Shown piece by piece: positions 13,533-25,739 of a stretch of DNA of 25,739 nucleotides. A program made the translations under genes and the position numbers. Within the stretch, counting starts at the first letter, position 1. Each line of letters starts with the position of its first letter. This DNA comes from a virus. Below the pieces are notes generated by a model, which was not told where the DNA came from, made no database searches, and saw only the letters and a list, made by a program, of their open reading frames with translations. Where the stretch lies: the IMG/VR virus record IMGVR_UViG_3300032265_000800, positions 1 through 25,739 of that record. One strand, 5' to 3'.

Positions 13533-16500
13533 ATGGATTTTTCAATTGCACCATATTACGACGATTTTCAATCCACAAGTGGCGCAAAATACAATAATTA
13601 CATGCGCATCCTGTTCAAACCAGGATATGCAGTTCAGGCTAGAGAACTAACGCAGATTCAGTCTATTCTACAGAATCAGATTAAGTCCCTCGGCGATTTT
13701 GTTTTGCAGAATGGTTCACCTGTTTCCGGTGGGCATATAACATTTGATGTTTCTTCTAAATCCATTCAAATTCAGTCGACTCAGTCTGGTATACCGATCA
13801 CAATATCTGATTTTAATAATCAGCTAATCATTAATGCGACTGGCTCTGCCATTGCTAGAGCTAAAGTTACTGCAGTAGATACATCGACATCAAGCGCAGT
13901 TTCTGCTGGTTCTCTTATTTTAAAATATTTAACTTCTGATGAATTTGCCGATGGAGATGTAATTCAGATCGCAAACGGCAATCAAGAAAAGGCAACTCTA
14001 TTAACATCTAATGCACTTTCTAATTGCGCAACAGTAAGTATCAATGATGGTGTATTTTATGTTGATGGGTATTTCGTATATGTTCCATCTCAAACAATTG
14101 TTCTCAGTTCACTATCATCAAATGTTTCCTGCACCGTTGGTCTTCAAATTAATGATGCCATAGTCGACTATACTGCTGATGCTGCACTATTAGATCCTGC
14201 TCAGGCTTCATTCAATTATCAGGCTCCTGGTGCTGACAGATACCAGTTCAATCTAACACTAACATATAGACCAATCGGATCAACGGATACCAGTGCGTAT
14301 TTTGAATTATTGACTATTGAGAACGGAGTTGTAACAAGTCAGGTTGACTATGCGCTCTTGGGTGGAATTCAAGACACTCTTGCTGCAACTGTTTACGACC
14401 AGTCTGGTGATTTTACTGTTAGACCATTCCGAGTTTCTGCGTCAGAAAATACAGCAAACCAAAGTACATTCTTACTCAACATTGAACCAGGAAAGGCTTA
14501 TGTTAAGGGTTATGAATTCGAAACGATAGGCACAGTTAAAATTGCTGACCTAAAGGCTCAAACCACAGAAAGAAATTCTGGTTATGATTTATCCCTATTT
14601 TACGGCAATTATGTAATTACCAACAATGTACATTCAGGAAATATTGCAGACTTTAATATTCAGAATTTTGGTAGCTTAGATTTACATACTGTTCCTCAAG
14701 CATATATTAACACTAAGAGCTCAGCCGCATATTCAAATACTAAGATTGGTACTGCTAAAATTAGAGATCTTGAGCCATCAGGTGATGGTGTAACATATTA
14801 TGCTTATCTAACCGCAATTAATACGGCTCCGCTTGTAGTAAATTCTTCAGGATTCAGTCCAAATCAATACTACGCAAACGTTCCTCTATTAACGACCCAG
14901 ACAGGAGCATTCAATAATGTAACTGTTTCTGTGGTTTCGGGAAACTCTAGTGGTGATGTTCGAACAATTATTGCATCAACATCAGATGGTAACGGAAATA
15001 CTTCTTTACAAGTTAATAACCCATTCACAGATCAAATTGATTCTACATCAGTCTTATCTTTAAATTTTGGAATTAAAGATGTTGATTCTCTAGTAGTCTC
15101 TCCAACAATTGTTCTTGATGGAACTGCCGCAAATAATTACGTGTATTCCAACAACTATTTTGCTGGTATGGATATTTCCGCAAAAGGAAAATCTGCTGTT
15201 GGTGGGAATACCAATATATTCTCAACCGATTATAATAGTTTAATATATCCACTTCCTCAGACTTGGATTGCTCAATCAACTACCGCATTACCTTCAATGA
15301 ATAATATGAGCTACCTCACGAAAAAGGTGCTCACTGGTGTAACATTTGCAACCTCTAACTCATATTTTGCAACTTCAGGAACTCAATTAAAGGGAACAAC
15401 TTCTGAATCGTATACTTTCGGATTTGGTTCTGGTGGCTCTGTACCAGATATTTTAGCAAATGAAACTGTTACGATTTTGGTTACGAATAAACAGTCATCA
15501 AATCTAACAAATGGTTCTATTATTGTATTCAACCACAATACTGTCGCTAATGGCAATTCGATCTATCAAAATAGTCAGAACTCAATTACTGCAATCGTAA
15601 GTTCTAGTGGTGCATTTACCGCAGATATCATTTTAACAATTCAAGAAAATAGTGTTGAGGTTCCTCAGAATAATTTACTGAGAACAAAAACGCGTGTTGG
15701 TAATACTGCAAACATAACATTAATTTCGACAGACTCACCAGCTAATGGTGGCTATGCGATTATTGGTGCACCTGGTGGCACATATTTTGATTCTTCAAAT
15801 GGATATGTTTGGATTCCAGCATCTAGCGTCGTTAATGTTCCAGGAAAACCACAAAGTCTATATGTACCTGACGTGTTAAGTGTGATTAGAATTTATGATT
15901 CGGGAAATCCAAGTTACCCTCCGAATTCGGTTAATGCTATTGATGTAACAAATAGTTATTTACTTAATGGTGGTCAAAATGACAACTACTATGACCATGG
16001 ATATTTACTACTGAAGGAAGGATACAATCCTCCTCGTGGTCAAATTGTTGTTATGTTAACGTGTTATTTGCATTCAACAAATCCTGGATTCTTTAGTGTT
16101 GACTCATATCCAGCATTTGATTATAATGAGGAATATATCCCACACTATAGCTCTAAACAGAATGGCGTATTCTCTTTGAGAGATGCTATTGATTTTAGAC
16201 CAACAAGAGCTCCTGGATATTCGTCAAATGTTCAACCTTTTACTTTAATAACTGGAACCAATGGTGTATATTTGCCTAATCCGAATTATGCAATGCCATT
16301 GTCATACAGTTATTATGTTCCAAGAATTGATAAACTGACTTTAACTAAAGATAGACAGTTCAATATTATCTATGGAACACCAGGATTAAATCCACAAACT
16401 CCTGCAGACGCAGATGATGCGATGACTCTTTATATTATAACCGTGCCACAATACACAAGTAATACTGCAGCTATTGGTCTAAAATATATTGATCATCGTG

Positions 16501-18155
16501 GATATACGATGAAAGATATTGGTACTCTGGATAAGAGAATTACTAATCTAGAGAGCTACACAACTTTAAACTCTCTACAGCAAAAAGCAACTAACCAGAC
16601 TATAACATATCAGAATGGAACGACAGCAAAAGATATCTATGGTGTAATTACGGATAATTTTGCAGACTTTAGTGTTGCTGACACTACAAGTGTAGATTTA
16701 CTATCAAAAATTCAGAATTCGACACTAACTCCAATTCAAGAAATTACGCCAATAAACTTTAACTTCTTATCATCAACATCTGGTAATTATCAGATTCATC
16801 ATAAAACTTTAACTGTTGGATATACCGAAACTCCAGCGATTACTCAGAATACAGTTACTAGAGGAATTGTTGTTCAGCCATTCTCATTCGGCCAGTTTAA
16901 AGGTCAGATGAAACTGAAACCAGAGTCAGATTTCTTCGTAAGTCAAAATCTAGTTCCTGTTGTAATTACTGCTCCTGATGAGCCAGTAATTCAGCCTGCA
17001 TATACTGTTGGTGCTAATGGTGTTGCAGTTCCAGTAGCAACATCCCCAGTAACTCCAGTAATTGTAATAAATCCACTGTTACTTCCAATTGCAAATATTA
17101 CTGAGGTTCCTACCCTATTCACTCAAACATTAACTTCGAGCGGTGGAACATCTCCATATGTTTATACAGTAATTACAGGATCATTGCCTCCAGGTCTTTC
17201 ATTAGGATCATCAACTGGAATTATAACTGGATACCCAACATATCCAGGAAGATATCATTTCTCTATAAAATCAACAGATGTTAATGGCTTAACTAGTGCG
17301 CAAGATTTTTACATGACTGTAAACATGGTTTATCCAACAATACTAGTAAGTCCATTGTCAGTTTCTGGTGCAACCTCAAATGTTGCATACTCAACAGTTA
17401 ACTTCACTGCTTCTGGTGCCTATACTCCATACACATACTCAGTAACTAGTGGTTCGCTTCCAACTGGATTGTCATTAAGTTCTGGTGGTGCGTTAACAGG
17501 AACTCCAACCTCGCAAGGAAATTATAACTTTACCGTAACTGCTAAAGACGTCAATTCATATAATGGTTCTTCGAGCTACACAATGACAGTTTCTCCACCA
17601 ACAATCAGTATAACCCCTTCAACATTACCGAGTGGAATTGGTTCTACAGTATACACAACAACAGCAATTACTGCTTCTGGTGGTAATGCTCCATATACAT
17701 ATACTGTATATACTGGTTCTTTACCTCCTGGATTAACATTAAGTTCTGGCGGTTCATTATCAGGAACCCCGACTTCTAATGGTACATATAACTTCCATGT
17801 GAAGGCGACAGATTCTAATAGTGCTATTGGTATTATTGCATATACAGTAGCAGTTGCTGCACCAACGATTAGCATAAGCCCATCTTCCCTATTGGTTGGA
17901 ACTGCTGAGGCTGCTTACTCTGGTGCTGCAAATACCGTATCTGCATCTGGTGGTTCTGGCGTATATACATATGCAGTAACCAATGGATCTTTACCGAGTG
18001 GTCTATCGATGGCATCAACTGGAATTATTAGTGGGACGCCGACAGTGGCTGGTACATTTGGTATTACAGTTACTGCAACTGACGCGAATGGGTTTATTGG
18101 ATCGAAAGTTTATTCCGTTCTGATAAATGCTCCAACAATAACATTAAGTCCTTAA
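13533..18155 (+). CDS. DUF4815-type virion protein fused to four Ig-like (He_PIG) domains
   Basis: A 1540-residue structural protein. The N-terminus (YYDDFQ..., YMRILFKPGYAVQARELTQI, QSILQNQI) and later landmarks (NIEPGKAYVKGYEFETIG, PRIDKLTLTKDRQFNI, HRGYTMKDIGTLDKRI) are those of the DUF4815 family found after gp8 in marine T4-like phages. Its place suggests a peripheral baseplate or fibre-attachment role; exact function is not known. Residues 1180-1265, 1266-1354, 1355-1442 and 1443-1532 are four tandem putative-Ig domains with SGG-xxPYxYxVxxGSLPxGLxL and GTPTxxGxYxFxVxxxDxxG. The last eight residues, APTITLSP, are the first strand of a fifth domain whose body is encoded by the next gene. 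AGG lies 8 nt before the ATG; gp8 ends two bases upstream. Confidence 0.85.
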   Translation: MDFSIAPYYDDFQSTSGAKYNNYMRILFKPGYAVQARELTQIQSILQNQIKSLGDFVLQNGSPVSGGHITFDVSSKSIQIQSTQSGIPITISDFNNQLIINATGSAIARAKVTAVDTSTSSAVSAGSLILKYLTSDEFADGDVIQIANGNQEKATLLTSNALSNCATVSINDGVFYVDGYFVYVPSQTIVLSSLSSNVSCTVGLQINDAIVDYTADAALLDPAQASFNYQAPGADRYQFNLTLTYRPIGSTDTSAYFELLTIENGVVTSQVDYALLGGIQDTLAATVYDQSGDFTVRPFRVSASENTANQSTFLLNIEPGKAYVKGYEFETIGTVKIADLKAQTTERNSGYDLSLFYGNYVITNNVHSGNIADFNIQNFGSLDLHTVPQAYINTKSSAAYSNTKIGTAKIRDLEPSGDGVTYYAYLTAINTAPLVVNSSGFSPNQYYANVPLLTTQTGAFNNVTVSVVSGNSSGDVRTIIASTSDGNGNTSLQVNNPFTDQIDSTSVLSLNFGIKDVDSLVVSPTIVLDGTAANNYVYSNNYFAGMDISAKGKSAVGGNTNIFSTDYNSLIYPLPQTWIAQSTTALPSMNNMSYLTKKVLTGVTFATSNSYFATSGTQLKGTTSESYTFGFGSGGSVPDILANETVTILVTNKQSSNLTNGSIIVFNHNTVANGNSIYQNSQNSITAIVSSSGAFTADIILTIQENSVEVPQNNLLRTKTRVGNTANITLISTDSPANGGYAIIGAPGGTYFDSSNGYVWIPASSVVNVPGKPQSLYVPDVLSVIRIYDSGNPSYPPNSVNAIDVTNSYLLNGGQNDNYYDHGYLLLKEGYNPPRGQIVVMLTCYLHSTNPGFFSVDSYPAFDYNEEYIPHYSSKQNGVFSLRDAIDFRPTRAPGYSSNVQPFTLITGTNGVYLPNPNYAMPLSYSYYVPRIDKLTLTKDRQFNIIYGTPGLNPQTPADADDAMTLYIITVPQYTSNTAAIGLKYIDHRGYTMKDIGTLDKRITNLESYTTLNSLQQKATNQTITYQNGTTAKDIYGVITDNFADFSVADTTSVDLLSKIQNSTLTPIQEITPINFNFLSSTSGNYQIHHKTLTVGYTETPAITQNTVTRGIVVQPFSFGQFKGQMKLKPESDFFVSQNLVPVVITAPDEPVIQPAYTVGANGVAVPVATSPVTPVIVINPLLLPIANITEVPTLFTQTLTSSGGTSPYVYTVITGSLPPGLSLGSSTGIITGYPTYPGRYHFSIKSTDVNGLTSAQDFYMTVNMVYPTILVSPLSVSGATSNVAYSTVNFTASGAYTPYTYSVTSGSLPTGLSLSSGGALTGTPTSQGNYNFTVTAKDVNSYNGSSSYTMTVSPPTISITPSTLPSGIGSTVYTTTAITASGGNAPYTYTVYTGSLPPGLTLSSGGSLSGTPTSNGTYNFHVKATDSNSAIGIIAYTVAVAAPTISISPSSLLVGTAEAAYSGAANTVSASGGSGVYTYAVTNGSLPSGLSMASTGIISGTPTVAGTFGITVTATDANGFIGSKVYSVLINAPTITLSP
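17070..18152 (+). repeat. Array of four Ig-like domains plus an orphan first strand
   Basis: Units of 86-90 residues begin at codons 1180, 1266, 1355 and 1443 of the upstream protein. Each has PTIxxSP, ASGGxxPYTY, GSLPxGL, GTPT and a final VxAxDxxG element (the He_PIG/PF05345 pattern). The array ends after APTITLSP, which would start a fifth unit. The copies are diverged in DNA, sharing only short runs such as AACAGGAACTCCAAC. Confidence 0.85.
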
Positions 18156-18173
18156 TTTGAGAGAATACGAATG
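18153..18173 (+). other. In-frame stop, ribosome-binding-like stretch and restart splitting an Ig-like domain
   Basis: A TAA at 18153-18155 is followed in the same reading frame by TTT GAG AGA ATA CGA and an ATG at 18171. GAGAG lies about 7 nt before that ATG and can serve as a ribosome-binding site. Removing these 21 bases would join ...PTITLSP to TALTNATVSTPYTQ..., which fits the repeat consensus exactly. The upstream and downstream genes are therefore one ancestral array divided by a small intercistronic insertion. Confidence 0.75.
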
Positions 18174-20090
18174 ACAGCATTAACAAACGCAACAGTCAGT
18201 ACTCCATATACGCAAGTTATAACACCAAGTGGTGGTATTTCTCCGTATACCTATTCTATAGTTTCAGGTACTGGTTCTCTACCAACAGGATTATATTTTA
18301 CTCCAAATGGTGCGGCAACTGGAGCGACTACAACAATACAGGGTACTCCAACTGGTGCTGTGGGCACATACGCATTTACATTTAGCGTTAGTGATTCTTA
18401 TAATTTTAGTGTACAAAAAATATATACAATTCAATTAGGTTCTCCAACAATTATCATCACTCCTGGGGTATTGCCAAATGCTAAAGTTGGGCAATTATAC
18501 ACTCAAACATTTGTTGCAAATACACCTACGGGCAGTTACAATTTTACATTTGCTAATACTGGAGCATTACCAGAAGGTCTAACGCTAACATCATCGACTG
18601 GTGTTCTAAGTGGAACCCCGACAACAGCTGAGTCTAATACATTCACTATCACCGCAAGTAATAGTCAATATTCTTATTCTAATACCACACCCAACTACAC
18701 TATTGTGACTGCAGCATCACCACCAACAATTATTGTTTCTGGTTCACCAGGATATGGGGTTTGGGGTCAAGTTTATCCAGGAGCAACAATAACTGCTTCT
18801 GGAGGAACTGCACCATATACATTCGCAATCTCATCTGGTGCATTGCCAGCAGCATTGACGCTGTCGTCGGGTGGTGTAATATCAGGAACAGTTGCCAAAG
18901 CGGATGCTGATGATTATGGGACTGGAACAGATCCTGATGATATTGGTGCATACCAATTTACTGTATCGGCAACGGATGCTAATGGGTATACTGGAACGAA
19001 TTCTTTTCAAATTTCACTTAATAATCCAACTATAACTATTGCTGCTCCGACATCAACTGCAACCGTTGGTACTGCATACTCTAGTTCTATTTCTGCTAGC
19101 GGTGGATACACACCATATACTTACAAAATAGCAAGCGGATCTTTACCAAGTGGACTCACTAAGGGTTCTTCTGGTGCAATAACAGGAACTCCAACTCGTA
19201 ATGGAGTGTATACTTTCACGGTAACTGCAACAGACCAATATGGATATAGTGCAACATCTTCTTCTTTTACTATTACTGTCGGTGCTGGAACGTTAGCTCT
19301 GAGTACACTATCAGCAACTACTGGAACTGGTAATGTTGCATATACTGGAACCTTTAGTGCCTCGGGTGGTTCTGGTAATTATTCATATGCAATTACATCA
19401 GGATCTTTACCAACAGGAATTACTAACAGTGGTACTGGTACTATTTCTGGGACTCCACAGGCTACAGGTACATTTAATTTTACTGTTACTGCTACAGATA
19501 CGACATATGCCACTACTGTCTCTAGAGCATATACATTAACTATTGTTCCACCAGGAATAACTGTACTCCCAACAGTCATAACATCTGGACAATTTGAAGT
19601 CGCATATACGCAAACCATGAGTGCTACTGGCGGTACTGCGCCATATACATTCGCGGTAACAGGTAATCATTTACCTCAAGGCTGGCAAATGAGCACAGCT
19701 GGTGTTATAAATGGAACAAGTGTTGGTCCTGGCTGGGATGCATATATTTTATCTCAGCATCCGAATGGATACCAAAATTTCAACTTTACTATAACAGCAA
19801 CTGACAAGTATGGTTATCAAGGATCTAGAGCTTATGATCACACAATGAATGCTCCGACAATAACTTTAAGTCCAGCAAGTTCATTCCCAGCAACAATATC
19901 TGCTAGTGGTGGCGTTGGACCATATGTTTATTCAGTAAGTTCCGGAACATTACCTAATGGCTGGTCACTAAATGGTACCACTGGTGCAATTAGCGGTACT
20001 GCTCCATCAACTGGCGGAACATACAACTGGACAGTACAAGCGGTTGACTCTAATGGATTCGCTGGGTATCGTAGTTACACTACAACTCTA
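18171..20090 (+). repeat. Array of seven Ig-like domains
   Basis: Continuation of the array at 17070-18152, making about eleven units in total. The unit length varies from 80 to 102 residues because of loop insertions in domains 3 and 6 of this gene. Domain 7 has a shortened first half (ASSFPATISASGG). Confidence 0.82.
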
Positions 20091-20474
20091 CCTAATACTA
20101 ATCGACCAGGACCACAAGGTGGTCAAGTATCAGCTGCTGGCGGTGGTGGTCCTGTTGGGGCAATACTAACTGGCACAACTACTTCTGCTGGTGGCTTACC
20201 GACAACTTATACTGCTTCTGGTGGAGCTGCTGGTGCTGCTGGAGTTCAAACGACAGTCACTGTTGCGCAGCCAACGGGAACTTCTCAAACGACATCAGGT
20301 GTAACGACGGTTTTAGTATCGCCAGTCTCTACTGGCGTTGTGACTACGCAAGCCAGTAACACAAATACTGCTTGCACTACAACCTCAACCACAGCTAGTG
20401 GAACTGGATCATCAATACAAGTTAGTGGTGGTGGGTATGTTAATCCGAGCCTTGGTGGTCCGAGCGGGAAATAA
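18171..20474 (+). CDS. Ig-like (He_PIG) repeat virion protein, seven domains plus Ser/Thr/Gly-rich tail
   Basis: A 767-residue protein in the same frame as the preceding gene, 15 bases after its stop. Domains span about 1-90, 91-182, 183-284, 285-372, 373-460, 461-560 and 561-640. Each keeps ASGG-xxPYTY, GSLPxG and GTPxxxGxYxFTVxATD. The first domain lacks the PTIxxSP strand that begins all others. Domain 3 has an Asp-rich loop at 245-257 (DADDYGTGTDPDD) and domain 6 a longer insertion near 517-533. Residues about 642-767 are low-complexity Thr/Ser/Gly/Ala. Phage Ig-like domains usually decorate capsid, baseplate or fibres and bind carbohydrate weakly; here the context suggests a surface accessory of the baseplate. 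No signal peptide or membrane segment is seen. Translation is probably coupled to the upstream gene. Confidence 0.82.
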   Translation: MTALTNATVSTPYTQVITPSGGISPYTYSIVSGTGSLPTGLYFTPNGAATGATTTIQGTPTGAVGTYAFTFSVSDSYNFSVQKIYTIQLGSPTIIITPGVLPNAKVGQLYTQTFVANTPTGSYNFTFANTGALPEGLTLTSSTGVLSGTPTTAESNTFTITASNSQYSYSNTTPNYTIVTAASPPTIIVSGSPGYGVWGQVYPGATITASGGTAPYTFAISSGALPAALTLSSGGVISGTVAKADADDYGTGTDPDDIGAYQFTVSATDANGYTGTNSFQISLNNPTITIAAPTSTATVGTAYSSSISASGGYTPYTYKIASGSLPSGLTKGSSGAITGTPTRNGVYTFTVTATDQYGYSATSSSFTITVGAGTLALSTLSATTGTGNVAYTGTFSASGGSGNYSYAITSGSLPTGITNSGTGTISGTPQATGTFNFTVTATDTTYATTVSRAYTLTIVPPGITVLPTVITSGQFEVAYTQTMSATGGTAPYTFAVTGNHLPQGWQMSTAGVINGTSVGPGWDAYILSQHPNGYQNFNFTITATDKYGYQGSRAYDHTMNAPTITLSPASSFPATISASGGVGPYVYSVSSGTLPNGWSLNGTTGAISGTAPSTGGTYNWTVQAVDSNGFAGYRSYTTTLPNTNRPGPQGGQVSAAGGGGPVGAILTGTTTSAGGLPTTYTASGGAAGAAGVQTTVTVAQPTGTSQTTSGVTTVLVSPVSTGVVTTQASNTNTACTTTSTTASGTGSSIQVSGGGYVNPSLGGPSGK

Positions 20475-20482
20475 TTTAAATA
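20475..20482 (+). promoter_or_regulatory. Possible late promoter octamer TTTAAATA
   Basis: TTTAAATA differs from the T4 late consensus TATAAATA at one base. It begins directly after the stop of the Ig-repeat gene, in the widest rightward gap (50 bp), and would initiate near 20488, about 36 nt before the next ATG. The rest of the gap (20483-20524) is AT-rich with GGGA 6 nt before the ATG and no hairpin that I can see. Confidence 0.3.
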
Positions 20483-20524
20483 CATAATATGTACAAAATA
20501 GTAAAGAGATAATCGGGAAAAAAT

Positions 20525-23500
20525 ATGGCAACACCAATAATAACAAATGCTGGTCCACAAAAAATTGATGTGTCCATCGTTCCATACATGCGATCGGGGC
20601 AAGTTGAGGTTATCACAAATAATCTACGCCCAGGAAAGGGTGCATATTATTGGTTTGATCAGACTCCAGTCAATCAATTCGTCCAGACAGCTTCTGTTTT
20701 GAATGTTAAAAATGTATCTTCTGTTAATATTTCTCAGGGCGATGGTATTTACTGTCAGAACACCCATGCTTATGCAACTGTTATTTCAGTTTCACCAAAT
20801 ACCGCGCCAAATGTAACTACAATCTATATTAATGAAAATTATTTGACTCTAAATTTATATCCTGTTGGTGCGAATGTAGTTTGGAATTCTAGCAATACTA
20901 GTGACTATAAACCAGGCGATATTATTTTCCAGATCATTAATGTTCCTGCAAATGGTAATACATCCCTAAGCGCGACGTTCATGGGCATGGTTGAGTATTG
21001 GAATCCAGTAAATGCTTCTCTTAGCGTATCTCCTATCTCTGGAACTATTTTTGCCAATTCAATTTCTCAATTGACGGTTAATGCAAATAGTGTTATCTAT
21101 AAAATGACGGATAATCAAATTGCATATACTCTATCTGTTGTTGGTGCAAATGGCGGCACTACTGTTCCTAATTTCCCGAATGCTAATGCAATTATTTTCA
21201 CATCACAGACCTCGCCGAATTTGTTATCGACAAATACAACAAGTGCATATGTCCAAAATCACGGTTTGATAATTAATGCAAATACTTTAGATACGACATA
21301 TACTCATATAAATTTACCATCAGCTGACTATGCTGGAACTCGCGCGGCAAATACTCTGTATATTGTTAGTGGAAGTGGCATTGGTTCTAATTCTCAAATT
21401 ACCTCAGCTTCTGATAACACAGTAATAACTTCTAACCCACTTTATGTTAATGGTACTTCTGCTTGGACAATTGGTACTCCGCAAGTAGACCATAATGGTA
21501 TGCTCGCTGGTATATTCACAATTCCAGAAACTGCTACTTTTAACTTTTTAAGCGGTCAAAGAACATTAACAATTACAGATACTGCAGATAGTGTTGATAG
21601 CGTTAATGGTACGATGAGAGCTCAGGCATATTATACTGCTTCTCCATCAATATTCAATACAAGTGACTTTAGAGGAACACCTACTCTTAAATGTGTAGCG
21701 GTTCAGCCTCCAGGAAGTGCTCCAGTTGCTCCAGTAGACCCATCATCTAGAGGGTCAGTCACATCAACGCATGCGCTAGTTGCTAATACTTCGGTTGCTA
21801 ATACTGGAACTTATCTATCAGATAATGATCCTCTAGCTCAAACCTTTACGACACCAGCACCAAAAAGCGTTAAACAAAATTATGGAATTTTTGCAACATC
21901 AGTTGATCTTTGGTTCAAGAATGTACCAACAGGAAGTTCTCCACAACTTCCTGTAATTTTAAGTCTCGTTACGACCAATAATGGGTTCCCAACATCAACG
22001 ATTCTTTCACAGGTTGCTGTGCAATGCGCTGATGTTAAAGTATCAAATGTTCCAGATAGTGCTAACATCGGTTCTTTGATTGCAAACAATTCGACGGCAA
22101 CAAGATTTACTTTCCCTGATCCAGTTTATCTTGATGCATCAACTCAATATGCTATTGTTGTTCATTCAGACTCTCCAGACTACCAATCATTCGTCTCTGA
22201 TATTGGTTCATATAACATATCATATGGTGCAAATAGTTCAGTTACTGTTGGTGGTTCTCAGCAGACTAATATTCTATACACTTACCTAACTCAGCCTGAA
22301 GCATTCACGGTTTCTGATGTTCTAGTTTTTGGTGCAGCTAAAGGTGTTACGAATCCAACCACAAGAGATAGTATCGTCCAAAAAGCACTACAAACATACA
22401 GATCTACAAATCCTGGGGATGCAGTTAATGCTGCTCAGTCTTCAATTACATATTATGCAGTAGATCCGACTACTGGTAATGTGTATCAGATGACTAATAT
22501 TATTCCAACGTCGACGCAAAGTAAAGTTTCTGCGCCACCTAATGTTGGATCATTATATTTGGCTCAGAATTCTTCAACATGGAAACCACTAAAGAATCAA
22601 ATGCTCATGTTTGTACTGAATAGAGCAGTATTTAATACAACACCGACACAGTTAAAATTTAATGTTTCTCCTCCAGTAAATACTATCGCGGTAGATTCTG
22701 TCGTATTGAACTCTGATGATATTGTATTCCCATCATCAAGTTTAACATATGCTTTAGAAACAACATATTTGAGTAATCAAGTATCTCCTCCTGCATTTAA
22801 GCTGAACCCAACAGCTAAGATCTTAACTCCTGGGGTAGTTTATAATTTTAATCAAGATTATGAAGCATTATCCATAAGCAATACTAGAGAGAAATATATT
22901 CTTCCTGGAAACGCTAATACAGTCATAGTTAATGTTACAATGCAGACAAATGATCCTGATGTAAGTCCAATATTCAACATGGAAAGATTCAGTGCTCTTG
23001 TTGGAACTAATATAATTTCCCCAGGATATATACTTCCTCCGCATGTGTCAATATCTAATTCAGTTAATGTAATATCCAAAATTTCTTCGACATATAACGT
23101 TGAAACTTTTGTTGTGACCATTGATCCTCCAACTTCACTTGTCAATAATGTCCAAGCAACAGCAAATATTACTGCCGCGCAAATTTCCTCAAATGGAAAT
23201 ATCACTGGGATAAACATGATAAATCTTGGTGCTGGATATATACAAACACCAAATATTACTATTACATCTAATGCTGTTGCTATTGCAACTGGCGATGCTT
23301 TAGCGAACAGTAATGTTATTCTTAACTTAACAACTTCTTATGGAAGCTGGGATAATGGATTACAGGTTAGTGGTCCAGGAATTCCTAATGGAACTCTCGT
23401 TCTTTCTTATAATTCAACCCAGTTGAATCTTTCTCAGAATGTGACACAAACTGCTAGTGCGATAACAATAACTGGAAATACGGTTCTTGCTAATACGACA

Positions 23501-23965
23501 GTTTCTGGTGAGAATAGAAAATACAACGGTAATGGCGTTGCTCGATATCAAACTCGTGAAATCATTCTTGCTAATGGGTTTGCTTCTGGCGACTTGAGGG
23601 TATTTGTTGATGGTATTATTCCTAATGGTACTGCTGTAAATGTATACTATAAGGTTCTTTCTGGTCATGATTCAGATACAATCCTAGATAAGAATTGGCA
23701 GCTGATGACAGCTGTCAGTAGTGTTGTAAATTCCCCAGATCATAATACTCCAATTGAGATTGCTTACGCTCCAAGTCCTCTTGTAAATGGACTACCGAGC
23801 GGAACTTTATCTTATGTTGAATATTCGTCAGATGGTATTCCTACGACCTATCCACTTGGAGGAACATTCCAGTCGTTCCAAGTTAAGATTGTAATGATCT
23901 CTGACGATCCGACTGATGTTCCTAAGATAATAGGATTGAGAGCTGTTGCATTACCGCCAGGATAA
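20525..23965 (+). CDS. Large virion protein with DPLAQTF/lectin-like domain, at the gp10-like position
   Basis: An 1146-residue protein. The N-terminus (DVSIVPYMRSGQVEVITNNL, RPGKGAYYWFDQTPV) is typical of the structural proteins that accompany DUF4815 proteins in marine T4-like phages. Residues about 436-600 carry NDPLAQTFTTPAP, ATSVDLWFKNVP, FTFPDPVYLDASTQYAIVVH and SPDYQSFVSDIG, a jelly-roll-like module found in many such virion proteins. The C-terminal region includes a GGSGY-like element at about 890-917 (NGNITGINMINLGAGY, PNITITS) and a final beta domain with REIILANGFASGDLRVFVDG and FQSFQVKIVMISDDPTDVPK, typical of wedge or pin proteins that end in 'xKI-R-xAL'. It probably sits on the baseplate edge and anchors fibres; the exact T4 equivalent is uncertain. 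GGGA precedes the ATG by 6 nt. Confidence 0.78.
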   Translation: MATPIITNAGPQKIDVSIVPYMRSGQVEVITNNLRPGKGAYYWFDQTPVNQFVQTASVLNVKNVSSVNISQGDGIYCQNTHAYATVISVSPNTAPNVTTIYINENYLTLNLYPVGANVVWNSSNTSDYKPGDIIFQIINVPANGNTSLSATFMGMVEYWNPVNASLSVSPISGTIFANSISQLTVNANSVIYKMTDNQIAYTLSVVGANGGTTVPNFPNANAIIFTSQTSPNLLSTNTTSAYVQNHGLIINANTLDTTYTHINLPSADYAGTRAANTLYIVSGSGIGSNSQITSASDNTVITSNPLYVNGTSAWTIGTPQVDHNGMLAGIFTIPETATFNFLSGQRTLTITDTADSVDSVNGTMRAQAYYTASPSIFNTSDFRGTPTLKCVAVQPPGSAPVAPVDPSSRGSVTSTHALVANTSVANTGTYLSDNDPLAQTFTTPAPKSVKQNYGIFATSVDLWFKNVPTGSSPQLPVILSLVTTNNGFPTSTILSQVAVQCADVKVSNVPDSANIGSLIANNSTATRFTFPDPVYLDASTQYAIVVHSDSPDYQSFVSDIGSYNISYGANSSVTVGGSQQTNILYTYLTQPEAFTVSDVLVFGAAKGVTNPTTRDSIVQKALQTYRSTNPGDAVNAAQSSITYYAVDPTTGNVYQMTNIIPTSTQSKVSAPPNVGSLYLAQNSSTWKPLKNQMLMFVLNRAVFNTTPTQLKFNVSPPVNTIAVDSVVLNSDDIVFPSSSLTYALETTYLSNQVSPPAFKLNPTAKILTPGVVYNFNQDYEALSISNTREKYILPGNANTVIVNVTMQTNDPDVSPIFNMERFSALVGTNIISPGYILPPHVSISNSVNVISKISSTYNVETFVVTIDPPTSLVNNVQATANITAAQISSNGNITGINMINLGAGYIQTPNITITSNAVAIATGDALANSNVILNLTTSYGSWDNGLQVSGPGIPNGTLVLSYNSTQLNLSQNVTQTASAITITGNTVLANTTVSGENRKYNGNGVARYQTREIILANGFASGDLRVFVDGIIPNGTAVNVYYKVLSGHDSDTILDKNWQLMTAVSSVVNSPDHNTPIEIAYAPSPLVNGLPSGTLSYVEYSSDGIPTTYPLGGTFQSFQVKIVMISDDPTDVPKIIGLRAVALPPG

Positions 23966-23967
23966 TT

Positions 23968-24180
23968 ATGAGTAAATATATTAAAGTAAAAGATAATGAA
24001 CATTTAGTCAAAGATCCTGTGACTAAAGCGATCTTAAATATAGATCATAAGGCGATTTTGAGACACGAACAGAGAATGAAGGTTATTGAAAAAGAAAAGA
24101 ACAGAGATGATGAGATAAATACAATTAAGACGGAACTATCTGAGATTAAATCTCTACTTCAGAAATTAATAAGCGGTTAG
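23968..24180 (+). CDS. Small coiled-coil protein, possible fibre or baseplate adaptor
   Basis: A 70-residue protein. Residues 1-30 (MSKYIKVKDNEHLVKDPVTK, AILNIDHKAI) resemble a small protein I recall from T4-like marine phages near tail fibre genes, with the pattern 'KDxxxLVRDxxTGAILN'. Residues about 31-46 are strongly charged, and 47-68 (INTIKTELSEIKSLLQKLI) form a short heptad pattern with I50, I53, L57, I60, L64 and L67, compatible with a dimeric or trimeric coiled coil. AGGA sits 5 nt before the ATG and overlaps the upstream stop region; the next gene begins five bases after its TAG. No function is established; the position before the fibre suggests an attachment or assembly factor. Confidence 0.75.
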   Translation: MSKYIKVKDNEHLVKDPVTKAILNIDHKAILRHEQRMKVIEKEKNRDDEINTIKTELSEIKSLLQKLISG

Positions 24181-24185
24181 AATAA

Positions 24186-25739
24186 ATGGCAAACGCAAAT
24201 ATAGGTCAGATTAGCACAGCAAATACCTTTAACGATTGGAGGGTGGCTACAAACAATCTGGCTAATGGTTATAACCAGTTAAGAAATAGTACCTTCGTCA
24301 AAGATACTGGCGACTTCCGTATGGAAAATGGAGTCGTGTATCTTGATGGTACATCTGGTGATCAATTGGTCAGTGCTGGTGGCGTTTCCATCGCAGGACA
24401 ATTAAGCTCAACTATTCTTGTTAATAGTTCTGATGCTACAGTTCAAGGAAACCTTACTGTAAGTGGTTCAGCTAAAACTCTAAGCGTAACAAATAATACA
24501 TACACAAGAAATCTAACCGTTGCTAATGCAGCGTCAGTTGGAACGAATCTATCAGTCACTGGTAATACGACAGTCGGTGCAAACTTATCGGTATCTGGTA
24601 ATGCATCAATTGGTGCAAACTTAGCATTAACTGGTAATCTAACTGTTGGTCAAAATACCACAGTTAGCGGTAATGTTTCTATAACTGGTAATACATTAAT
24701 CTCATCAAATCTATCTGTGAGTGATAATGTTACCATCGGACAAAATACTTCGATCAGTGGAAACTTGCTTCTAACTGGTAACGCTACAATTTATTCTAAT
24801 GTTTATGTTTCTCAGAATGCAAATATTACTGGCACACTAAACGTATCTTGGCTAAATGTTTCTTCAAATATTGCTAATACTGGCAATATTATGGTAACGA
24901 TGAATACGATTACTGGCAATATAACAGTAGCCAATAATACATCAACTGCCAATCTTTCAGTTACTAAAGTTGCTAATATTGCAACTGGTAACATAGCGAC
25001 TCTAAATGTATCTAACGAAACAATTACTGGAACATTGAACGTTGCTACTGCAAACGTATCAACACTAAATGTAACTAACGAAACGATCACTGGAACATTA
25101 AATGTTGTTACTGGTAACGTGACGACTCTAAACGTATCTAACGAAACCATTACTGGAACGTTAAATGTTGTTACTGGTAACATAACTTCGTTGAATGTGG
25201 GCACTGGTAACTTAGTGACTGGTAATATAACAACCCTCAATGTCACTAATGAGACTGTTGGTACTTTAAATGTCACAAGTGAGTCTGTTGGCACTCTTAA
25301 TGTTACGACAGGCGCGACGATTGTTACCCTAAACGTGACCAATGAAACAGTTGGTACTTTAAATGTAACAACAGGCAATATTGTTTCTCTAAATTCCAGT
25401 ACTGCTAATCTAGTCACTGGTAACATCACAACTTTAAATGCTTCTAGTGCAACAATCAGTACTTTAAATGTGACCAATCAAACTGTTACTGGTTTGTTGA
25501 ATGTTGCAACAGCTAATATTACGACATTAAATGTAACCAATGAGACTGCTTTTGGTACTTTAAATGTTACCACTGGTAATATTATTAGCTTGAACGCTGC
25601 AACAGCAAATTTGGTTACTGGTAACATCACGACTTTAAATGCTTCTAGTGCGACTATTAGCACTCTTAATGTGACTAGTGAAACTATCGGAACGCTCAAC
25701 GTAACAAGTGCCACGATCGCAACGCTCAATAGTACAGGA
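24186..25739 (+). CDS. Repetitive tail fibre protein, 3' end beyond the window
   Basis: The reading frame from ATG 24186 is open for 518 codons to the last base, with no stop. Residues 1-55 (IGQISTANTFNDWRVATNNL, ANGYNQLRN, FRMENGVVYLDG) resemble the attachment head of fibres in marine T4-like phages. Residues 112-219 are strict hexapeptides with [V/I/L]xxNx[S/T]. From 273 onward the pattern changes to 10-residue units of the type LNVTxETVGT. Such repeats build thin beta-helical shafts; the receptor-binding tip should lie past the right edge. The frame is bordered on the left by the 70-residue gene. A weak GCGG lies about 10 nt before the ATG. Confidence 0.88.
   Translation, partial: MANANIGQISTANTFNDWRVATNNLANGYNQLRNSTFVKDTGDFRMENGVVYLDGTSGDQLVSAGGVSIAGQLSSTILVNSSDATVQGNLTVSGSAKTLSVTNNTYTRNLTVANAASVGTNLSVTGNTTVGANLSVSGNASIGANLALTGNLTVGQNTTVSGNVSITGNTLISSNLSVSDNVTIGQNTSISGNLLLTGNATIYSNVYVSQNANITGTLNVSWLNVSSNIANTGNIMVTMNTITGNITVANNTSTANLSVTKVANIATGNIATLNVSNETITGTLNVATANVSTLNVTNETITGTLNVVTGNVTTLNVSNETITGTLNVVTGNITSLNVGTGNLVTGNITTLNVTNETVGTLNVTSESVGTLNVTTGATIVTLNVTNETVGTLNVTTGNIVSLNSSTANLVTGNITTLNASSATISTLNVTNQTVTGLLNVATANITTLNVTNETAFGTLNVTTGNIISLNAATANLVTGNITTLNASSATISTLNVTSETIGTLNVTSATIATLNSTG
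24519..24842 (+). repeat. Hexapeptide repeat segment of the fibre (residues 112-219, 18 units)
   Basis: Units such as VGTNLS, VTGNTT, VGANLS, VSGNAS, IGANLA, LTGNLT, VGQNTT and VSGNVS follow without any slip. Asn is at the fourth place of sixteen consecutive units, residues 121 to 211. The pattern resembles the [LIV]-G-x-x-[STAV]-x hexapeptide of left-handed beta-helices. Confidence 0.8.
25002..25739 (+). repeat. Decapeptide LNV repeat of the fibre (residues 273-518)
   Basis: LN[VAS] recurs at intervals of mostly 10 or 11 residues, with three 15-residue intervals (LNVGTGNLVTGNITT, LNSSTANLVTGNITT, LNAATANLVTGNITT). A longer direct DNA repeat pairs 25338-25485 with 25536-25686, about 201 bp apart, including TAACATCACxACTTTAAATG and CTTCTAGTGC in both. 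Confidence 0.8.

Follow-up and report, generated by a model that had tools for sequence, protein, structure and literature searches.

A strict array of eighteen hexads in the tail fibre of an uncultivated T4-like phage as a candidate narrow three-chain beta-helix

Thin rods made of three wound chains are already known, and a repeat as readable as the one described here is unusual. In phage T4, the narrow triple beta-helix of the tail-fibre proteins gp34 and gp12 is an intertwined structure of about 2 nm that shows, according to its authors, no clear sequence motif (PMC5537660, in the part of the article drawn on here), while the C-terminal triple-stranded beta-helix of gp5 is a wide rod with a well-defined repeat motif (PMC4576200, in the part drawn on here). 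Hexapeptide repeats wound by three chains are found in the stalk of MyRF, a solved triangular prism located beside an ICA domain, in which each strand has two core residues, one residue apart; the same article names phage ICA families (PMC8326128, in the part drawn on here). This is the only open-licence paper found that joins hexapeptide repeat, tail fiber, and phage, and none of the open-licence papers found reports hexad arrays from the shafts of phage fibres.

The fibre considered here belongs to an uncultivated T4-like phage known from a 25,739-base fragment (IMG/VR virus record IMGVR_UViG_3300032265_000800), which in its whole length is the window of this analysis. The features concerned are:

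20525..23965, plus strand: C-terminal part of a VrlC-like structural protein (phrog_358, E 2.6e-64, profile positions 1323-1743)
23968..24180, plus strand: 70-residue virion structural protein directly upstream of the fibre (phrog_473, E 6.5e-15)
24186..25739, plus strand: tail-fibre gene, the last ORF, giving the first 518 residues with no stop before the contig end
24186..24518, plus strand: N-terminal region of the fibre, residues 1-111, presumed attachment domain (from alignments with relatives)
24519..24842, plus strand: hexad array of 18 units, fibre residues 112-219 (from translation, periodicity statistics, and Pfam Hexapep)
24843..25739, plus strand: second repeat region, with 21-residue (63-nt) and 10-residue (30-nt) units, e.g., TLNVTNETVG

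The last gene of the window is identified as a tail fibre by its gene order and its relatives, which agrees with the label given to it in an earlier note on this DNA. Upstream of it lie T4-type baseplate genes (gp5-like, gp6, gp7-like, and gp8) followed by the VrlC-like and phrog_473 genes, and the succession of VrlC-like protein, small phrog_473 protein, and fibre is also present in the contigs L006, L007, L019, and L022 and in Pelagibacter phage HTVC008M. The N-terminal region carries an ANTFxxWxxxTNxLA motif near its start, and both the N-terminal domain and the gene order of the S74-chaperoned T4-like tail-fibre group are found in this gene. In L006, L007, and L022 the VrlC-like gene is a single ORF coding for 1930-2182 residues, and in the window (13533-23965) it is distributed over three ORFs; an in-frame TAA (18153-18155) lies where putative Ig (He_PIG) domains stand in series, with an in-frame ATG downstream at 18171.

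The fibre N-terminus alone had no tblastn match in 50,697 phage records, and an IMG/VR scan with this single N-terminus did not find relatives either; these were retrieved by an alignment-based scan of IMG/VR, which gave 131 fibre relatives, the best 80 of which were kept (L103-L182). Among these best 80 of 131, 15 are duplicates as judged from the first 150 residues, and two contigs appear under two handles (L022 is the same as L166, and L100 the same as L172). The relatives share the N-terminus with its ANTFxxW-type motif, and in many of them a hexad array of 3 to 24 units starts near residue 117. The nearest of the best 80 of 131, L104 and L105, reach about 41% over the aligned part; both carry TLNVTNETVG-like repeats, of which L105 has many more copies than the present fibre, and collagen-like repeats, which in L104 form the end of the protein together with an S74 domain. 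Peptidase_S74 is matched at the C-terminus of 30 of the 48 distinct complete relatives, the remaining 18 being without an S74 match. Endosialidase-type chaperones (S74) and collagen are trimer-associated domains, and the present fibre is therefore probably a homotrimer, a conclusion taken from the C-terminal domains of its relatives because its own C-terminus lies beyond the contig end.

The array (24519-24842) translates to 108 residues that form 18 uninterrupted hexads, in which every unit has V, I, or L at position 1 and 16 units have Asn at position 4, units 2-17 standing in an unbroken row. The hydrophobic spacing extends over 19 units (residues 112-225), and when the residues of the segment were shuffled 20,000 times, no position-1 hydrophobic run exceeded 9 (19 observed) and no [VILMF]xxN run exceeded 5 (16 observed), so that both the eighteen consecutive hydrophobic units and the sixteen consecutive Asn residues described in the earlier note are well beyond shuffled expectation. 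The alternation of xG[A/Q]N with x[S/T]GN described together with them holds in the first half only: units 2-9 follow a strict GxN/xGN alternation (VGTN VTGN VGAN VSGN IGAN LTGN VGQN VSGN), which is lost after unit 9 (ITGN ISSN VSDN IGQN ISGN LTGN IYSN VSQN). As regards strictness, the Asn run of 16 compares with at most 6 in the best 80 of the 131 relatives and with 11 in L015, a fibre found by its pattern.

The hydropathy power of the segment has its peak at period 6 (145.9, null mean 8.0), with a further peak at period 2 and a weak one at period 3, and no peak at periods 8, 12, 15, and 18 (period 8, 0.2, p 0.98; period 12, 3.1, p 0.69; period 15, 2.8, p 0.70). The eight-residue VxGxxxxx repeat of the T4 gp5 type is thus absent from the segment, as is the repeat of about 15 residues by which adenovirus-type triple beta-spirals are defined.

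The LbH rule places a small residue at position i-2, corresponding to position 5 of the hexads, and is broken by this array, where 7 of the 18 units have Leu there; for this reason the array is not filed in the acyltransferase LbH family. The size of the position-5 residue alternates between large and small in 16 of 18 neighbouring pairs, almost to the array end, with two slips of phase that account for the missing period-12 hydropathy peak. The twelve-residue unit is visible in this fibre in position-5 size only, whole-unit identity not favouring it (p 0.21), and in several relatives it is supported by whole-unit identity. Across 13 distinct arrays of at least 8 units, picked by position 1 alone, the alternation is found in 115 of 137 pairs (shuffle mean 73.7, sd 5.6, the observed count being reached in 0 of 5000 shuffles) versus 32 of 75 in E. 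coli hexapeptide-enzyme controls found in the same way, and Leu is at position 5 in 52/150 fibre-family units versus 2/83 control units, counts that are not independent events because the 13 arrays have a common ancestry. When arrays of at least 6 units are considered, the alternation is 131/185 versus 60/138 and Leu at position 5 is 54/207 versus 2/158. The controls derive from eight E. coli proteins, those of at least 8 units from DapD, GlmU, LpxA, LpxD, YdcK, and YrdA, and some of them, namely GlmU 248-295 and YdcK 228-275, have probably been divided in the wrong register, as may also be the case for runs in either set. In the relative L149 the alternation is not clear (6 of 11 pairs). On the strength of the alternation across the arrays, the repeat unit of the family is best read as twelve residues, composed of one L-x-V strand and one T-x-V/I strand.

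In comparison with known folds, the isolated segment scores 29.7 bits on Pfam Hexapep (PF00132), above the cut-off of 27, and the whole ORF scores 17.1, below it; on Bactofilin (PF04519) the isolated segment reaches 26.3 bits, below the cut-off of 27.9, and the score in the genome search is 15.4. A profile made of phage hexads only finds in hmmsearch the solved left-handed hexapeptide enzymes LpxD, LpxA, and similar ones (best E 1.9e-8, for LpxD), phmmer matches the segment to LpxD with E 1e-7, and no solved phage fibre is among the matches of either search; a separate profile scan likewise gave LpxD and LpxA as significant and no T4 fibre protein. Taken together, the Hexapep, near-Bactofilin, and enzyme-profile matches make a six-residue strand-and-turn geometry likely, in line with the beta-helix geometry proposed in the earlier note, and the array most likely has its six-residue geometry in common with the LbH acyltransferases. 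With LpxA and LpxD it shares a hydrophobic residue every six residues, xGxN-type turns, and detectability by profiles, but it differs from them in its position-5 Leu, its two-hexad alternation, and its fibre context, with no enzyme domain seen.

The resemblance to solved three-chain rods concerns other traits. With T4 gp34 and gp12 the fibre has in common its T4-type tail-fibre nature and, in the structure proposed below, would share a width of about 2 nm, a hydrophobic core, and Gly, Ser, and Asn in the turns, whereas the T4 structures are described as being without a clear motif and this array is strict over 18 units (PMC5537660, in the part drawn on here). A twelve-residue matrix has its best match on gp34 at 911-934, inside the solved triple beta-helix and not above shuffles (z 1.6), and gives z 0.8 on gp12, z -0.2 on gp36, and z 4.0 on gp37 at 561-584, the scores on gp34, gp12, and gp36 thus remaining within those of shuffles; residues 905-941 of gp34 allow a division into hexads in which every second unit has Leu at position 5, in a register drawn post hoc. 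The gp5 rod resembles the proposed one in its three chains and regular repeat, and a gp5 homologue, L017, runs on into hexads; the gp5 rod differs in being wider and built of VxGxxxxx octads, the 8-residue period being missing here (PMC4576200, in the part drawn on here). The MyRF stalk is similar in its hexapeptide strands, core-residue spacing, triangular prism, and adjoining ICA (S74-type) domain, but it belongs to a mammalian transcription factor, has 4-6 strands per side, and is partly intertwined, and a long regular array or Asn series is not described in the part of the article drawn on here (PMC8326128).

Structure prediction by AlphaFold2 (AF2) from the single sequence (residues 1-238) gave a mean pLDDT of 45.5, too poor to judge, and its Foldseek search had no match at E<=0.001. 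When 19 hexad sequences were supplied, in a gappy alignment of 19 rows aligned by repeat register only, the mean pLDDT rose to 69.5 (75-82 over model residues 41-120) with a pTM of 0.46. In this second model, model residues 1-88 (fibre residues 82-169) are free of in-chain strands, and model residues 89-139 have them about every six residues; such six-residue strands appear in part of both models. The open chain, being without in-chain partners, could be a protomer of an intertwined trimer, while half of the array is closed in a single-chain manner. Foldseek of the 19-sequence model versus the PDB listed five matches at E<=10, none at E<=0.001, and neither an acyltransferase nor a phage fibre among them, and the best matches in BFVD, which comprised an S74 protein together with further proteins of viruses or phages, all had E >=0.008. 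In VIA-align the best structural match was BacA (2n3d) with Z 6.4 and 2.1 A over 75 residues, a Z under 8 being common according to the program's own note, and absences from this comparison mean little because only six chains were compared. The check by structure prediction suggested in the earlier note therefore yielded, with these AF2 monomers, no confident prediction of another fold. AF2 is reported to over-predict beta-solenoids on repeats (PMC11795689, in the part drawn on here).

The segment is proposed, with moderate confidence, to be a narrow beta-helix of three chains and about 18 layers that serves as a stiff spacer in the shaft of a trimeric, baseplate-attached fibre. Each hexad would provide one short beta-strand and a turn, with positions 5 and 1 (L-x-V or T-x-V) facing the core and the Asn at position 4 sitting in the turn. 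The three chains would be wound round one axis, each layer consisting of the same hexad from every chain. Bulky-core layers (Leu and Val) would mostly alternate with small-core ones (Thr or Ala and Val or Ile), giving the twelve-residue unit. The layer spacing of beta-helices is about 4.8 A. A stack of eighteen layers would thus be roughly 8-9 nm long, and the gain or loss of hexad pairs may change the length of the shaft.

The Hexapep score and the LpxD matches would also suit a left-handed hexapeptide beta-helix formed by each chain on its own, of about six coils and about 3 nm, with three prisms side by side as in the LpxA and LpxD trimers, an arrangement to which the in-chain strands in part of both AF2 models also point. 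The earlier note had envisaged either about six turns of this kind in each chain or a three-chain intertwined version. The former is rather unlikely and not the better option, since the position-5 Leu of this array and its family is nearly absent from the enzymes, the alternation runs over two hexads and not three, the relatives have trimerising C-termini, the AF2 model has a long strandless stretch, and Foldseek gave no acyltransferase and no PDB match at E<=0.001 despite the reported bias of AF2 towards beta-solenoids. It can further be argued that a repeat of two units is out of step with a coil in which one chain contributes three hexads; in a three-chain helix it would give alternating bulky and small layers, each keeping three-fold symmetry. 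The intertwined version fits better in these respects, but not with model residues 89-139, which AF2 closes within a single chain.

Bactofilins are right-handed, and a triangular six-residue beta-helix of their type, in one chain or three, would be consistent with the segment score close to the Bactofilin cut-off and with BacA having come closest to the AF2 model in the structural comparison; it appears improbable, because that score is below the cut-off and lower than that for Hexapep and the Z value is in the common range. A different trimeric fold of fibres that repeats every twelve residues, for example a triple beta-spiral in shortened form, could account for the two strand-like halves of the family dodecad and for relatives that form trimers, but the 15-residue periodicity is lacking and the two halves of the dodecad follow one hexad pattern, each with its Asn at the corresponding position, which makes this reading very improbable. 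As for the explanation that DNA was recently duplicated and gave a low-complexity repeat with no structural meaning, a tandem repeat is called at 24553-24654 (36-nt unit, 2.9 copies, 73% matches); nevertheless, the dodecads of the array differ in 28-64% of their bases (36-72% shared) while keeping the Asn and hydrophobic positions, AAT and AAC are both used as Asn codons, and the pattern recurs in relatives, so that the Asn series is not merely fresh DNA duplication and the probability of this explanation is close to negligible.

Hexads are not confined to the relatives of this fibre. A scan for the pattern found 11 contigs, including the fibres L015, L019, and L022, a Collar-domain protein with a short hexad run (L020), small proteins without a fibre-like appearance, and a gp5-type spike (L017). 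The latter is an IMG/VR homologue of T4 gp5 (PDB 1k28, E 9.9e-23) whose chain continues C-terminally into six-residue xGGN units (1204-1983), and these do not alternate at position 5 (1/5). Among the "acyltransferases" of the Thermus phages TMA and phiYS40, TMA_051 resembles the fibre in having a 22-unit array with position-5 alternation in 17 of 21 pairs, but it comes from another phage group and differs in its N-terminus and gene neighbours.

Several small phage proteins (L012, L013, L014, L016, and L021) have near-perfect VGGNAW/VGGNQD hexads but do not resemble fibres, and L012 matches the solenoid repeat of YdcK. The phage proteins with hexad-like matches in L003 (3620-4492), L004 (3767-4732), and L005 (3926-4663) carry the database labels UDP-3-O-acylglucosamine N-acyltransferase, acyltransferase, or glycerol kinase, the enzyme label being probably wrong for at least L003, and ORF165 of phage MA9V-1 is also labelled acyltransferase. 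The acyltransferase genes of H. pylori prophages were discarded as candidates, having turned out to be a flanking host gene. In the Streptococcus salivarius plasmid NZ_CP054155.1, a protein near 56170 is annotated as polymer-forming cytoskeletal, and the hexad segment matches 36 places in the record.

In a wider and more tentative reading, which may well not hold, the dodecad L-x-V-x-G-N-T-x-V/I-G-x-N would be a second code, readable from the sequence, for an intertwined phage rod, that is, a narrow three-chain beta-helix with a hydrophobic core, an Asn ladder at the corners, alternating bulky and small layers, and a length determined by how many units the array has; this code would stand beside the VxGxxxxx code of gp5 as its thin counterpart, with some phage "acyltransferases" as members. 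If the hexads do form a narrow rod, a narrow triple beta-helix would become recognisable from sequence and the length of the shaft could be read off the gene, the acyltransferase annotations of phage hexad proteins would need correcting, and thin protein rods could be built from a regular module that occurs in nature.
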